Positions 17,761 to 34,000 of a DNA stretch of 34,604 nucleotides are shown here, one piece after another. How positions within the stretch are numbered: position 1 is the first letter of the stretch; each line of letters opens with the position of its first letter. A program made the position numbers and the translations under genes. Below the pieces are notes generated by a model. The model worked only from the letters and a program-made list of their open reading frames with translations. It had not been told where the DNA came from and made no database searches. Origin of the DNA: Candidatus Andersenbacteria bacterium RIFCSPHIGHO2_12_FULL_45_11b (GTDB taxonomy: Bacteria; Patescibacteriota; Andersenbacteria; UBA10190); contig MHHS01000006.1 in the NCBI GenBank assembly GCA_001817115.1, positions 1 to 34,604 of the forward strand, read 5' to 3'.

Positions 17761-18771
17761 TCATACATATTCATTAGTTCGCATCTCATACTCACTCAAT
17801 ACTATTTCCTCAAGATTATGAGCACTCCCATGTTGCAATAGACCAAGATAGGAATTCAGCGTCGGCAGTTTAGGGTTTTCTTGTATTCGCCGCATCATAC
17901 GTGTAGTTGTAGCTGACCTAAGGCGACGATAGTTGGAAAAATGAACCCACCCCAGAAAATCTACACCCGAAGCAAGCGAACGAATATATACTTTGCCAGG
18001 ATGCAAAGAGAGCTGAAGAAGCTGCACTAAAATATCTTCTATCTTCGGTATCTGGTCTTCAAGCAACTTTCTATCTTCAGATAAAAACACAAAATCATCT
18101 GCATACCGGATATAGTATTTGGCTTTTAAGAAATGCTTTGCGTATTGATCAAACTCATGCATATAAATATTCACGAGCAATTGAGATGTGAGATTCCCAA
18201 GCGGAAGCCCCTTGCCTGGTTTTGTTGATTGGAAGCTGGTGATAATTTCTTTGAGGAGCCAAAGAATATCTTGATCCGGAATGTAGGTTTGCAAAATACC
18301 CTGCAATATCGACTGATCAATACTGGCAAAGAATTTTCGGATGTCGCACTTGAGAACCCAACATGTCTTTGTGTAGTTGTGGCTAGCTTTTTGAGCTACC
18401 GATTTGAAACGGGCTAGCGCTTTGTGACTTCCTTTATTCAGACGGCAGGAATACGAATCATATATAAACACAGAATCGAAGAATGGATACAGAATACGAT
18501 ATATAGCATGGTGAAGAACCCTATCCCTCACGCTCGCTTTATGAATATTGCGCGGTTTCGAATCGGAAATCGAAAATGCTTTATACGGACCATGGCGATA
18601 CCGCTTGCTAGCTAAATCTTCGTGAAGGGAAAGTAGGCTATCAATCAAATTTCTTTCAAACGCTTGCACATCAGGCTTGTTTCGTTTACCGTTTATAAAC
18701 TCCGCCCAGGCTTGAAGTAAGTTATCTAAAGAAATAATATTGGCAAACGTATGGCTCAATTGAATGCGCAT
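17761..18771 (-). CDS. DGR reverse transcriptase (DGR1)
   Basis: DIRKFFASID, GLPLGNLTSQLLVNIYM (SQ-type motif of DGR RTs), YIRYADDFVF; paired with TR1/VR1. Confidence 0.93.
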   Translation of the reverse strand: MRIQLSHTFANIISLDNLLQAWAEFINGKRNKPDVQAFERNLIDSLLSLHEDLASKRYRHGPYKAFSISDSKPRNIHKASVRDRVLHHAIYRILYPFFDSVFIYDSYSCRLNKGSHKALARFKSVAQKASHNYTKTCWVLKCDIRKFFASIDQSILQGILQTYIPDQDILWLLKEIITSFQSTKPGKGLPLGNLTSQLLVNIYMHEFDQYAKHFLKAKYYIRYADDFVFLSEDRKLLEDQIPKIEDILVQLLQLSLHPGKVYIRSLASGVDFLGWVHFSNYRRLRSATTTRMMRRIQENPKLPTLNSYLGLLQHGSAHNLEEIVLSEYEMRTNEYV

Positions 18772-19191
18772 AAAAAATCATTTAACAATACCCCCCCCCC
18801 AGCAATAAGTTATCCACAGGGAGAATTACCACTGCTTAAAAAGGTAAAAAATGCTTATTTCCTATGGTATGGGCAGTACCAAATTTTGCCAAAAACTCAC
18901 CGACATACCCTAGGCAGCCGAATCGACACTCTCTTTATTACTCTCATTGAAGTTATAGCAGCCGCGAGCTTCATGCCTCGTCAGGAAAAATTACCGTATG
19001 TGCAAACTGCAATCCGCAAGCTTGATGCGATCAAGATTTTAATTATGATCCTTTGGGAAACAAAATCTCTTGATGACAAAAAGTATGTAATCATTTCGGA
19101 GCCATTACACGAAATCGGGCGCATGCTTGGCGGATGGAGTGGGCAACTTACCAAAGCTAAACAAGAAAAACAAAACTCCCTGCTTAGATAG
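18751..19191 (+). CDS. avd: Avd-like accessory protein of DGR1 (four-helix bundle, S23/IVP-like); start uncertain
   Basis: LPLLKKVKNAYFLWYGQYQILPKTHRHTLGSRIDTLFITLIEVIAAA..LHEIGRMLGGW; plus strand, opposite to RT. Confidence 0.85.
   Translation: MAQLNAHKKSFNNTPPPAISYPQGELPLLKKVKNAYFLWYGQYQILPKTHRHTLGSRIDTLFITLIEVIAAASFMPRQEKLPYVQTAIRKLDAIKILIMILWETKSLDDKKYVIISEPLHEIGRMLGGWSGQLTKAKQEKQNSLLR
18791..18800. repeat. Homopolymeric C10 tract (G10 upstream of RT1)
   Basis: ATA-CCCCCCCCCC-AGCAATA; 19 nt from the RT1 ATG. Confidence 0.9.
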
Positions 19192-19210: not shown

Positions 19211-19305
19211 TTGCGGACACCGGCGAACCACCAGTTGTCATTCCAGTCATTGTCATTGCGGTTAACGTTCACATTCCGCTCGTCATTCCACCGGTTGAAG
19301 ATCGC
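19211..19305 (-). repeat. DGR1 template repeat (TR1)
   Basis: Aligned to 19646-19740: 16 mismatches/95 bp, all at T on + (A on coding strand); peptide AIFNRWNDERNVNVNRNDNDWNDNWWFAGVRN, rich in AAT/AAC codons. Confidence 0.95.
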
Positions 19306-19614: not shown

Positions 19615-20253
19615 TTAGGACAAAGTTTCTGACCGCAAAGAACTCTTGCGGACACCGGCGAACCACCAGTCGTCACCCCAGTCACCGCCATAGCGGTAAA
19701 CGTCCACACCCCGCCCGCCATCCCACCGGTGGAAGACCGCGTAGCACCAGTTGCTTTCAGCATCCTTCCAATGAGTGGCATTGGGATGATCGTCGGCGAA
19801 CGCGGGATCTTGCTCGTTAACGGCGGCCAGTGAGTACGGATCGACGGGCTTTAATCCCCGCAAATCGAACTCCTTTCCGAGGTCGACGTCGTTAACGTAA
19901 CGACCAAGCTTGAAGAAGTAGACATCCACTTCTTCACCCTCACCGTGCGGCATGGAAGCAGCTACTTCTTCATCTACGTACTGATTGCGACCCGTCGCCT
20001 TCATTGCTTCCTTTGGAGGGCAGGTGCGATCGACCTTGACGCGACGAACGATCATACCACTGATCGCTTCCACGCGCATACGGAACACCGCGAACAGGTC
20101 TGTGGCGAATTCCGGCTGACCAAGAACAGTTTGCACCGCCTCGGCGTCGAATTGGCCTGCATGCTTCTCGAGCATTGCTCGATACAGGCCGACCGCTTTA
20201 TCGACTTGACCAGCTGTCGTCGTCTTTGCGGATGGGGTCATGATCTGTGTCAT
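19615..20253 (-). CDS. DGR1 variable (target) protein, C-type-lectin-like C-terminus
   Basis: C-terminus NWCYAVFHRWDGGRGVDVYRYGGDWGDDWWFAGVRK encoded by VR1; SD AAGGAG before ATG. Confidence 0.9.
   Translation of the reverse strand: MTQIMTPSAKTTTAGQVDKAVGLYRAMLEKHAGQFDAEAVQTVLGQPEFATDLFAVFRMRVEAISGMIVRRVKVDRTCPPKEAMKATGRNQYVDEEVAASMPHGEGEEVDVYFFKLGRYVNDVDLGKEFDLRGLKPVDPYSLAAVNEQDPAFADDHPNATHWKDAESNWCYAVFHRWDGGRGVDVYRYGGDWGDDWWFAGVRKSSLRSETLS
19646..19740 (-). repeat. DGR1 variable repeat (VR1)
   Basis: See TR1; offset 435 bp, no indels. Confidence 0.95.
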
Positions 20254-31348: not shown

Positions 31349-32362
31349 CTATTCACTATTTTTTTCACGAAATAATCCGTACAAATTCAATACATCCTTC
31401 GTAAGCCGTTCCGTATTCCCATGCCGTAGTAACCCCAAATACGACTGAACCGTTTCTTCTTTAGGATTTTCTGCAATCTGCTTTTGCATACGTCTGCTCG
31501 TAGCTGATCTCAACACTCGATGGTCTGGAAAATTTACCCATCCCAGAAAATCTACTCCCGAAACTAAAGAACGAATATATACTTTGTCAGGATGCAGATT
31601 CAAACACAGCACCCCGTTTAAAAAATACTCTATCTTTGGAATCTGTTTTTCAAGCCATGCCCTATCGTGAGATAAAAGCACAAAATCATCAGCATAGCGA
31701 ACATACTGCTTTGCATGCAATCCATGTTTTGCATAGTGGTCAAATTCGTTCATATATATATTCACGAACAATTGTGACGTAAGATTGCCAAGTGGCAAGC
31801 CTTTCCCCGCTTCGTTTGCATGGAAGCTATTAATAATTTCCTTGAGCAACCGCATAATATCCACATCTGGAATAGAAAGGGAGAGAATTCCCAGTAAAAT
31901 ATTTTGATCAATGCTTGCAAAGAATTTTCTAATGTCGCACTTGAGAACATAACAAATTTTTGTATTATTATTGCTCAACTTCGTAGAATACTTTTTAAAT
32001 TGTTCAATTGCCTTGTGAGTTCCTTTATCTTTTCTACATGAATACGAATAATGGACAAACGTACGATCAAAAAATGGATAAAGTATCAGATATATTGCGT
32101 GATGTAACACGCGATCCCGAACAGTTGCTTTGTGAATATTTCTCGGCTTTGGGTCAGCTATCGCAAAAGCCTTATAGGCACCATGCTGATACGTATGGCT
32201 TGCAAGATCAGCATGGAGATCATAAAGATTATCAAACAGATTTCGATCGAACACTTGCACGTCTTTTTTATTTCGCTTACCCTTGAGAAATCCATTCCAT
32301 CCGCGTAGCAAATTATCCAAAGAAATAATATCTTTAAATGTATGACTCAATTGGATTCTCAT
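31349..32362 (-). CDS. DGR reverse transcriptase (DGR2)
   Basis: DIRKFFASID, GLPLGNLTSQLFVNIYM, YVRYADDFVLL; start MRIQLSHTF at 32362, matching RT1. Confidence 0.93.
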   Translation of the reverse strand: MRIQLSHTFKDIISLDNLLRGWNGFLKGKRNKKDVQVFDRNLFDNLYDLHADLASHTYQHGAYKAFAIADPKPRNIHKATVRDRVLHHAIYLILYPFFDRTFVHYSYSCRKDKGTHKAIEQFKKYSTKLSNNNTKICYVLKCDIRKFFASIDQNILLGILSLSIPDVDIMRLLKEIINSFHANEAGKGLPLGNLTSQLFVNIYMNEFDHYAKHGLHAKQYVRYADDFVLLSHDRAWLEKQIPKIEYFLNGVLCLNLHPDKVYIRSLVSGVDFLGWVNFPDHRVLRSATSRRMQKQIAENPKEETVQSYLGLLRHGNTERLTKDVLNLYGLFREKNSE

Positions 32363-32381
32363 AAACAACCAATAAAGCAGA

Positions 32382-32390
32382 CCCCCCCCC
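32382..32390. repeat. Homopolymeric C9 tract (G9 upstream of RT2)
   Basis: CAGA-CCCCCCCCC-ATCGCAA; 19 nt from the RT2 ATG. Confidence 0.9.
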
Positions 32391-32399
32391 ATCGCAAAG

Positions 32400-32762
32400 T
32401 TGTCCACAGATAATTTGCCAATCCTAAGCTGCTTAGGAGATGCATATAAGGCGTGGCATCGAAGTCTGCAAAATATGCAGAAGTTTTCTCGGTTTACCAT
32501 TGGCATAAAAATAGACATGCTGTTTCTTGAAACAATTGAATTTATTTTACTTGCGGAGTACGCACCGAAGGATCAAAAAAGCTCTATCATCAAACGGGCA
32601 AGCGGGAAATTAGACGCACTTAAATATTTCTTGCAATTAACTTCCGAGATGAGCATGCTGGAACACAACCAGTATATCCCTATCGCAGTACCGCTCACTG
32701 AAGCAGGCAAAATGCTTGGAGGATGGCAAAAACATATCAGACAAACAGCTCCTGCGCCGTAG
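32400..32762 (+). CDS. avd: Avd-like accessory protein of DGR2
   Basis: NLPILSCLGDAYKAWHRSLQNMQKFSRFTIGIKIDMLFLETIEFILLAEY..LTEAGKMLGGW; opposite strand to RT2; TTG start uncertain. Confidence 0.83.
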   Translation: MSTDNLPILSCLGDAYKAWHRSLQNMQKFSRFTIGIKIDMLFLETIEFILLAEYAPKDQKSSIIKRASGKLDALKYFLQLTSEMSMLEHNQYIPIAVPLTEAGKMLGGWQKHIRQTAPAP

Positions 32763-32794: not shown

Positions 32795-32916
32795 TTGCGG
32801 GTAGAGGGGAAACGACAATTCTCATTCCAATCATTGTCACGGTAATTCAGATACAGCTTCCGCTTGCCATCGTTCTCGTTCGCATACAGAACACGAACCT
32901 TACCGTTCCGGTCAAC
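32795..32916 (-). repeat. DGR2 template repeat (TR2)
   Basis: Aligned to 33304-33425: 19 mismatches/122 bp, all at template A; peptide VRVLYANENDGKRKLYLNYRDNDWNENCRFPSTRN. Confidence 0.95.
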
Positions 32917-33293: not shown

Positions 33294-33914
33294 CTAAGAA
33301 ACCTTGCGGGTAGAGGGGAAACGACAATACCCAGACCAAACACCGTCACGGCAACCCAGATACAGCCCCCGCTCGCCATCGTACTCGAGCGCAAACAGAA
33401 CACGAACCTCACCGTGCCGGTCAACGCAGATTTTCTGGGTACAGATGATGGGGTCTTCCCGCTGAAGGTTCGGATACGTTTCGCACAAGCTGAGAAAACG
33501 CGCGGGTGAAATCATATTTTTGCCGTTCTTGGCTTGAAAAGATTCCGCTCCGGAGCTGCTCATGCTCTTTCCGAAACGATCCAGCTCGATATGGATTGGA
33601 GAGGCATGCTCCTCTTCGGCCTCCACAAACGAATCGATGTACTGCCAGATCTCCGGATCGACGTAGTCGAACCTGCACCGCTCAATCCGATCTTTCCAAG
33701 TAAGTCCTGGAACGAATGGGGTCGGGTACGTTTTGGTCGGAGATGCAGAAGCAATCGGTGAAGATGCTTGCAGGGCGTGTTCCCACGGATTTTCTTTCCG
33801 TAGAAACTTCTTGAGTCCGACAAGCCATGCTTCGGACTCTTCACCGCAAAGTTTCTCGGTCAGGTCGTTGAGCGGTCCACGAACATCGCAGAGCGCAAGC
33901 CGAGTGTCAGTCAT
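33294..33914 (-). CDS. DGR2 variable (target) protein
   Basis: MTDTRLALCDVRGPLNDL...; C-terminus GEVRVLFALEYDGERGLYLGCRDGVWSGYCRFPSTRKVS encoded by VR2; SD AAAGGA before ATG at 33914. Confidence 0.88.
   Translation of the reverse strand: MTDTRLALCDVRGPLNDLTEKLCGEESEAWLVGLKKFLRKENPWEHALQASSPIASASPTKTYPTPFVPGLTWKDRIERCRFDYVDPEIWQYIDSFVEAEEEHASPIHIELDRFGKSMSSSGAESFQAKNGKNMISPARFLSLCETYPNLQREDPIICTQKICVDRHGEVRVLFALEYDGERGLYLGCRDGVWSGYCRFPSTRKVS
33304..33425 (-). repeat. DGR2 variable repeat (VR2)
   Basis: See TR2; offset 509 bp, no indels. Confidence 0.95.
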
Positions 33915-34000
33915 GACAGTCAGTCCTTTCAAAAAACTCTCGAAAACGCTGAATTCTGCCACAATGGCATCTATATGCAGGTTTTCAAAGAACTGCAATA

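Follow-up and report, generated by a model that had tools for sequence, protein, structure and literature searches.

In the window, that is, the stretch of 34,604 nucleotides analysed here, two DGRs carry a homopolymeric tract within the first codons of the accessory gene avd, and the length of this tract decides in which frame avd is read. From these sequences and those of related loci we consider it very likely that slipped-strand phase variation at the avd tract, acting as a contingency locus, switches the DGR mutator on and off. With slightly less confidence, but still as the probable state of affairs, we propose that DGRs of Patescibacteria possess their own random and reversible switch, which can be located at two sites (the start of avd or the middle of the RT gene), is built from many types of repeats and in part of the cases acts on avd and RT together.

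The features of both elements are compiled in Table 1. Each has a reverse transcriptase of the DGR type (RVT_1 domain, (I/L)GxxxSQ motif), an Avd accessory gene whose product scores above the Pfam cut-off for bAvd, and a TR/VR pair with changes at adenines only. As all differences between TR and VR fall on TR adenines, both elements are genuine DGRs with past activity. The best match of RT1 among solved structures is 8ub7 ('Reverse transcriptase', E=3e-36); for Avd no solved structural relative was found by sequence. The genes avd and RT are arranged head-to-head on opposite strands and their starts overlap by 21 nt, so that the ATG of avd is the reverse complement of CAT, the His codon at position 7 of RT. 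TR1 and TR2 are located beyond the 3′ ends of the avd genes, on the RT strand. An avd start antisense to a conserved RT His codon, with a 5′ overlap of about 21 nt and codons in register, is seen at 18751-18771 and similarly in about 97 loci. The source genome contains a third DGR of the same type (G000:C29; L213:1971-1987), in which the avd/RT junction is an assembly gap of N17 exactly at the expected tract.

Table 1. Features of the two DGRs of the window (positions in the window) and loci with a repeat inside the RT gene
Feature	Position	Strand	Remarks
avd1, 146 aa	18751..19191	+	bAvd PF22296, E=6.1e-11; divergent from RT1; ATG antisense to RT1 His-7 codon
C10 tract (G10 on RT strand)	18791..18800	+	in 5′ coding part of avd1; avd predicted ON at present length
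RT1, DGR reverse transcriptase	17761..18771	-	RVT_1; MRIQLSHT..., motif LPLGNLTSQ
TR1	19211..19305	-	16/16 differences from VR1 on TR adenines
VR1, in target gene 1	19646..19740	-	from TR/VR comparison
target gene 1	19615..20253	-	carries VR1
avd2	32342..32762	+	bAvd, E=2.3e-10; ATG antisense to RT2 His-7 codon; core out of ATG frame at present length
C9 tract (G9 on RT strand)	32382..32390	+	in avd2; avd predicted OFF at present length
RT2	31349..32362	-	start assigned by homology to RT1
TR2	32795..32916	-	19/19 differences from VR2 on TR adenines
VR2, in target gene 2	33304..33425	-	from TR/VR comparison
target gene 2	33294-33998	-	carries VR2
12-mer CTGTGGATAACT (DGR1)	18808..18819	-	complementary to avd1 codons (SYPQ); not kept in other loci
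12-mer CTGTGGACAACT (DGR2)	32398..32409	-	reading frame in avd2 differs from that in avd1
RT-internal repeat loci	L015:2037-2070; also L021, L215-L217, L220-L225, L227-L229, L231		most break RT frame

The G run on the RT strand corresponds to a C run at about codons 14-17 of avd, i.e. within the first 17 or so codons. We translated tract-length variants from the shared avd ATG. For DGR1 the product has 146 aa with C10, 29 aa with C11 and 19 aa with C12. For DGR2 the present C9 gives 23 aa and C10 gives 28 aa, while C11 leads to 140 aa; the same 140 aa are restored with C8. As assembled, avd reads ON in DGR1 and OFF in DGR2. DGR2 has nevertheless been active, since all 19 VR-TR differences are at adenines, and an element that is OFF by tract length and has a diversified VR is what the switch model predicts.

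Related loci were collected by a phylum-wide search, which detected a related RT in 136 of 381 genomes, and by a scan of GTDB with an alignment as query, which added relatives nearly all of which belong to the Patescibacteria. A scan of genome contigs with one protein as query found no relatives; the alignment query retrieved them. The 184 loci collected contain 165 distinct junctions with avd antisense and adjacent to RT, and avd in sense orientation was seen in a single locus. At 125 of the 165 junctions we found a simple repeat: 104 runs of G (G8-G14), 18 dinucleotide repeats (GA/CT/GT), one tetranucleotide and two pentanucleotide repeats. One further repeat, ATCATx3, lies in RT and looks like a chance occurrence. 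The repeat units of these 126 repeats have 1, 2, 4 or 5 nt, never 3 or 6. With the same criteria only 19 repeats are present in 450.6 kb of flanking sequence versus 126 in 16.0 kb of junction sequence, where 0.67 would be expected; this is a density about 190 times that of the flanks, in a set of loci that are related to one another and were partly picked by similarity. The tract lengths differ between relatives. Among the loci compared there was no near-identical pair with different tract lengths, the closest pairs being 84% identical. Two contigs (L150 and L186) begin 13 and 6 nt from the tract. In 12 phage DGR loci no such repeat was found at the starts of avd or RT.

The preliminary description had read the junction from the RT strand only, as a conserved leader of the form CTGTGGAYAACT-N7-G10/G9-N19-ATG, and had overlooked that the plus strand encodes avd. 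The letters themselves are confirmed. The minus strand from 18819 to 18772, 5′ of RT1, reads exactly CTGTGGATAACT-TATTGCT-G10-N19-ATG and from 32409 to 32362, 5′ of RT2, exactly CTGTGGACAACT-TTGCGAT-G9-N19-ATG, and the pattern has no match in 100 shuffles. In the 884-kb genome assembly the two DGR tracts are the only runs of at least nine G, and in a relative (G005) the sole run of this kind likewise sits at its DGR. The proposal of a conserved and probably functional G tract is borne out; what is kept at this spot in most relatives is a simple repeat. The remainder of the motif is not conserved. The 12-mer is avd coding sequence just past the tract, in frames that differ between the two copies; it is present in only two of the 125 tract loci, both of them the window DGRs, and the next best site has three mismatches. 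Neither is the spacing a fixed unit, as the distance between the G tract and the RT start varies among 73 loci (most often 13 nt, 18 loci; 19 nt in 11 loci). The search among related DGR RTs proposed there thus showed that the 12-mer and its spacing are absent from the others. Within the 12-mer of DGR1, but not of DGR2, the positions 18810-18818 (+) form a perfect DnaA-box consensus, TTATCCACA. We rejected a DnaA box or replication element, since a site of this kind occurs at just 3 of the 165 junctions.

The 12-mer and the G tract could still be an element of the RT leader, namely an RNA structure, a G-quadruplex, a cDNA-priming or processing site in the TR RNA, or a protein-binding site. G8-G14 is indeed the commonest form (104 of 126 repeats) and the G tract would belong to a transcript running from TR to RT. 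However, G is replaced by GA, CT, GT, ATTG and CTGTC repeats on either strand in the relatives, the tract is placed in line with the reading frame of avd, and other DGRs have the repeat within the RT gene. Such replacement and relocation fit a switch of the reading frame and not a G-specific RNA or DNA structure, and together with the rarity of the 12-mer and the variable spacing they make a leader element highly improbable.

The reading frames support the frame switch. In 123 of the 125 tract loci an open frame leads from an ATG into the tract; this ATG is in frame with avd in 25 of them, 44 would need one additional unit and 54 would need two. With one uniform criterion an in-frame avd ATG is found in 34 of 125 loci with a tract versus 33 of 33 loci without (Fisher p=1.3e-15), where the ON/OFF calls presume ATG starts and a small number of loci, L011 among them, contain a further in-frame ATG next to the tract. 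Seven loci with only G7 comprise 2 ON and 5 OFF loci.

As the majority of tract loci read OFF, and as the third DGR of the source genome has its assembly gap at the tract, the repeats and frame breaks might be signs of avd genes that are dead or being lost, or of errors in assembly. Draft assemblies may contain single-base errors in G runs, but the OFF share is the same for units of 2-5 nt (15 of 20) as for G runs (83 of 103), an argument against miscalled homopolymers. Moreover, the full-length avd core is kept in one open frame in 94 of the 98 OFF loci, and pairs that include an OFF locus show low dN/dS (L051/L060, both OFF, dN 0.08 and dS 0.68; L127/L135, dN/dS values 0.08/1.41). The OFF state is thus not decay. 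The start codon is kept as well. The RT His codon antisense to the avd ATG is CAT in 99 and CAC in 2 tract loci, the other RT His codons being divided 754 to 584, and this bias indicates that the avd start is under selection. Considering also that the VR changes are adenine-only in the OFF element DGR2, we regard decay as extremely improbable. What is found instead are three features expected of translational phase variation: a non-triplet repeat in the 5′ coding part, a length which decides the frame, and a gene that is intact and selected when OFF. In the RT tree the ON/OFF state changes at least 15 times and the type of repeat at least 13 times, 4 of these changes (for the G/non-G label) being required by starred branches.

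Two further explanations have to be weighed against a switch of the avd frame. The frame could be corrected after transcription, in that RNA-polymerase slippage or ribosomal frameshifting yields some Avd at any tract length, so that the tract would be a device for tolerance or dosage. In favor of this, 98 of 123 loci are out of frame while avd remains under selection, and transcription can slip on long runs of G. RNA polymerase and ribosomes, however, do not slip readily on repeats with units of 2, 4 or 5 nt, and these are used in the same way; in addition every locus without a tract is in frame. We consider frame correction very unlikely. Alternatively, since the tract sits between two divergent starts, its length could alter promoter or operator spacing, which is how promoter-type phase variation works. 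Spacing would be indifferent to the unit size, yet no 3-nt unit occurs among the 126 repeats. The contrast in frame between loci with and without a tract and the location of the tract within a coding region, that of avd here and that of RT in other DGRs, also argue against such a spacing device, which we judge very unlikely.

Many matches to RT are split into two frames near residue 183. In 15 loci (16 records, one locus being recorded twice) we found (GA)8-20, (AG), (CT)16 or G10-11 just before the (I/L)GNLTSQ motif of RT. No junction repeat is present in those members of this set whose sequence stretch includes the junction. The set was chosen for a split RT, thus its OFF share is biased and not informative. 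In the RT bodies of 20 loci without a tract that were examined, the only repeat is a borderline (TC)5.5 in a single locus. These data suggest that the position of the switch differs between DGRs, being either avd or RT. DGRs whose sequence holds no switch exist too, and they are in frame.

In 34 tract loci, about a quarter, no start codon for RT follows the tract (L035, L071, L082 and L098 are examples), and 24 of these 34 have an ATG before the tract from which the frame runs open into it. The same change in length would bring both avd and RT in frame in 16 of the 24 loci, where one third is expected (p=0.0009); in control loci the count is 6 of 28. Tentatively, one tract may therefore switch both genes in part of the loci.

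We suggest that the switch operates as follows. The non-triplet repeat in the first avd codons, 3′ of the ATG that is antisense to the RT His codon, sets the frame of avd by its length. Slipped-strand mispairing during replication would add or remove units at a high rate and cells would flip between Avd-ON and Avd-OFF; at phase-variable loci, repeat tracts are known to have mutation rates 100-10,000 times the basal level (PMC11868660). DGRs require Avd both to synthesize cDNA and for retrohoming, and with a nonsense mutation in avd the activity of the BPP-1 DGR falls to about 1e-9 (PMC12875486). Because of this requirement, which is established for BPP-1 and carried over to the Patescibacteria elements by analogy, a flip of Avd would turn targeted hypermutation of VR on or off, heritably and reversibly. 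A useful VR variant, once made, could then be retained by the OFF state. The loci were read from one genome per species of uncultured hosts, and it is from sequence that we infer the switch.

The contingency loci of Neisseria, Campylobacter, Haemophilus and Helicobacter likewise have poly-G/C tracts or non-triplet repeats of 2-5 nt in the 5′ coding part. In these SSR loci, too, the reading frame determines ON and OFF and the gene stays intact when OFF, which for the DGRs is deduced from the letters. Their targets are genes for surface structures, adhesins and DNA methyltransferases, whereas here the switched gene would drive a targeted mutator; also, the tract is here common to two overlapping divergent genes. 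Phasevarions, that is, phase-variable DNA methyltransferases, similarly have a master function that is switched at random, with far-reaching consequences. Their effect is methylation, and here it would be mutation of the target gene.

With the DGR of the Bordetella phage BPP-1 (avd-TR-brt) the Patescibacteria loci share RT, Avd, the adenine-specific TR/VR pair and a VR in the 3′ part of the target gene. In BPP-1, and in those of the examined phage loci in which avd was detected, the gene is on the RT strand and ahead of RT. In the Patescibacteria loci, in contrast, avd is antisense between TR and RT, overlaps the RT start and contains the repeat tract. These loci do not have the BPP-1-type order of the cassette, in which avd shares the strand of TR and RT; avd on the RT strand is not a defining feature of all DGRs. 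Our elements are probably the same group as DGR clade 2 of Roux et al. 2021 (PMC8144416), which is restricted to Patescibacteria, as judged from host phylum and cell-encoded DGRs and not from a tree. In the parts of that study covered by a term search, the words antisense and orientation and phase variation are not mentioned. A DGR survey has found frameshifted RT genes and regards them as inactivation (PMC3521204). A search of the literature on DGRs with phase variation or repeat slippage, whose scope left out some key DGR surveys and most preprints, returned no repeat-switched DGR. Both ingredients, DGRs and slipped-strand phase variation, are known; their combination was not found described as far as we could search.

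It has been an open question how a permanent targeted mutator spares a good variant. A heritable random switch would be a direct answer: the cell diversifies when ON and holds when OFF. If true, this would join two mechanisms of localized hypermutation which are usually treated side by side. From the tract length, taken modulo 3, the activity state of a DGR could be read in the sequence, and where a frame break has led to a DGR being classed as without avd or with a broken RT, that DGR may be switchable. The switch reading allows a simple test in metagenome reads.

Three minor observations were made outside the junctions. A stretch GA(A/G)TATTCGCG(C/G)GGC precedes TR, about 570-600 nt upstream of RT, in L009, L010, L011, L018 and L138; it could be a coding remnant of the target gene or a 5′ element of the TR RNA. 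We discarded GA(A/G)TATTCGCG in the 5′ flank of TR as a general DGR element because it was found in 5 of 162 loci. Outside the DGR, a C18 run extends into an assembly gap at G009:C16:54365 (L212:1166). In the source genome a G8/C9 run is located just upstream of a CsrA-like ORF (L205:1239; G000:C25:18538), and in a congener a run adjoins the same neighbour gene (L208:1231; G004:C5:5330). The run beside the CsrA-like ORF is possibly a further switch locus.
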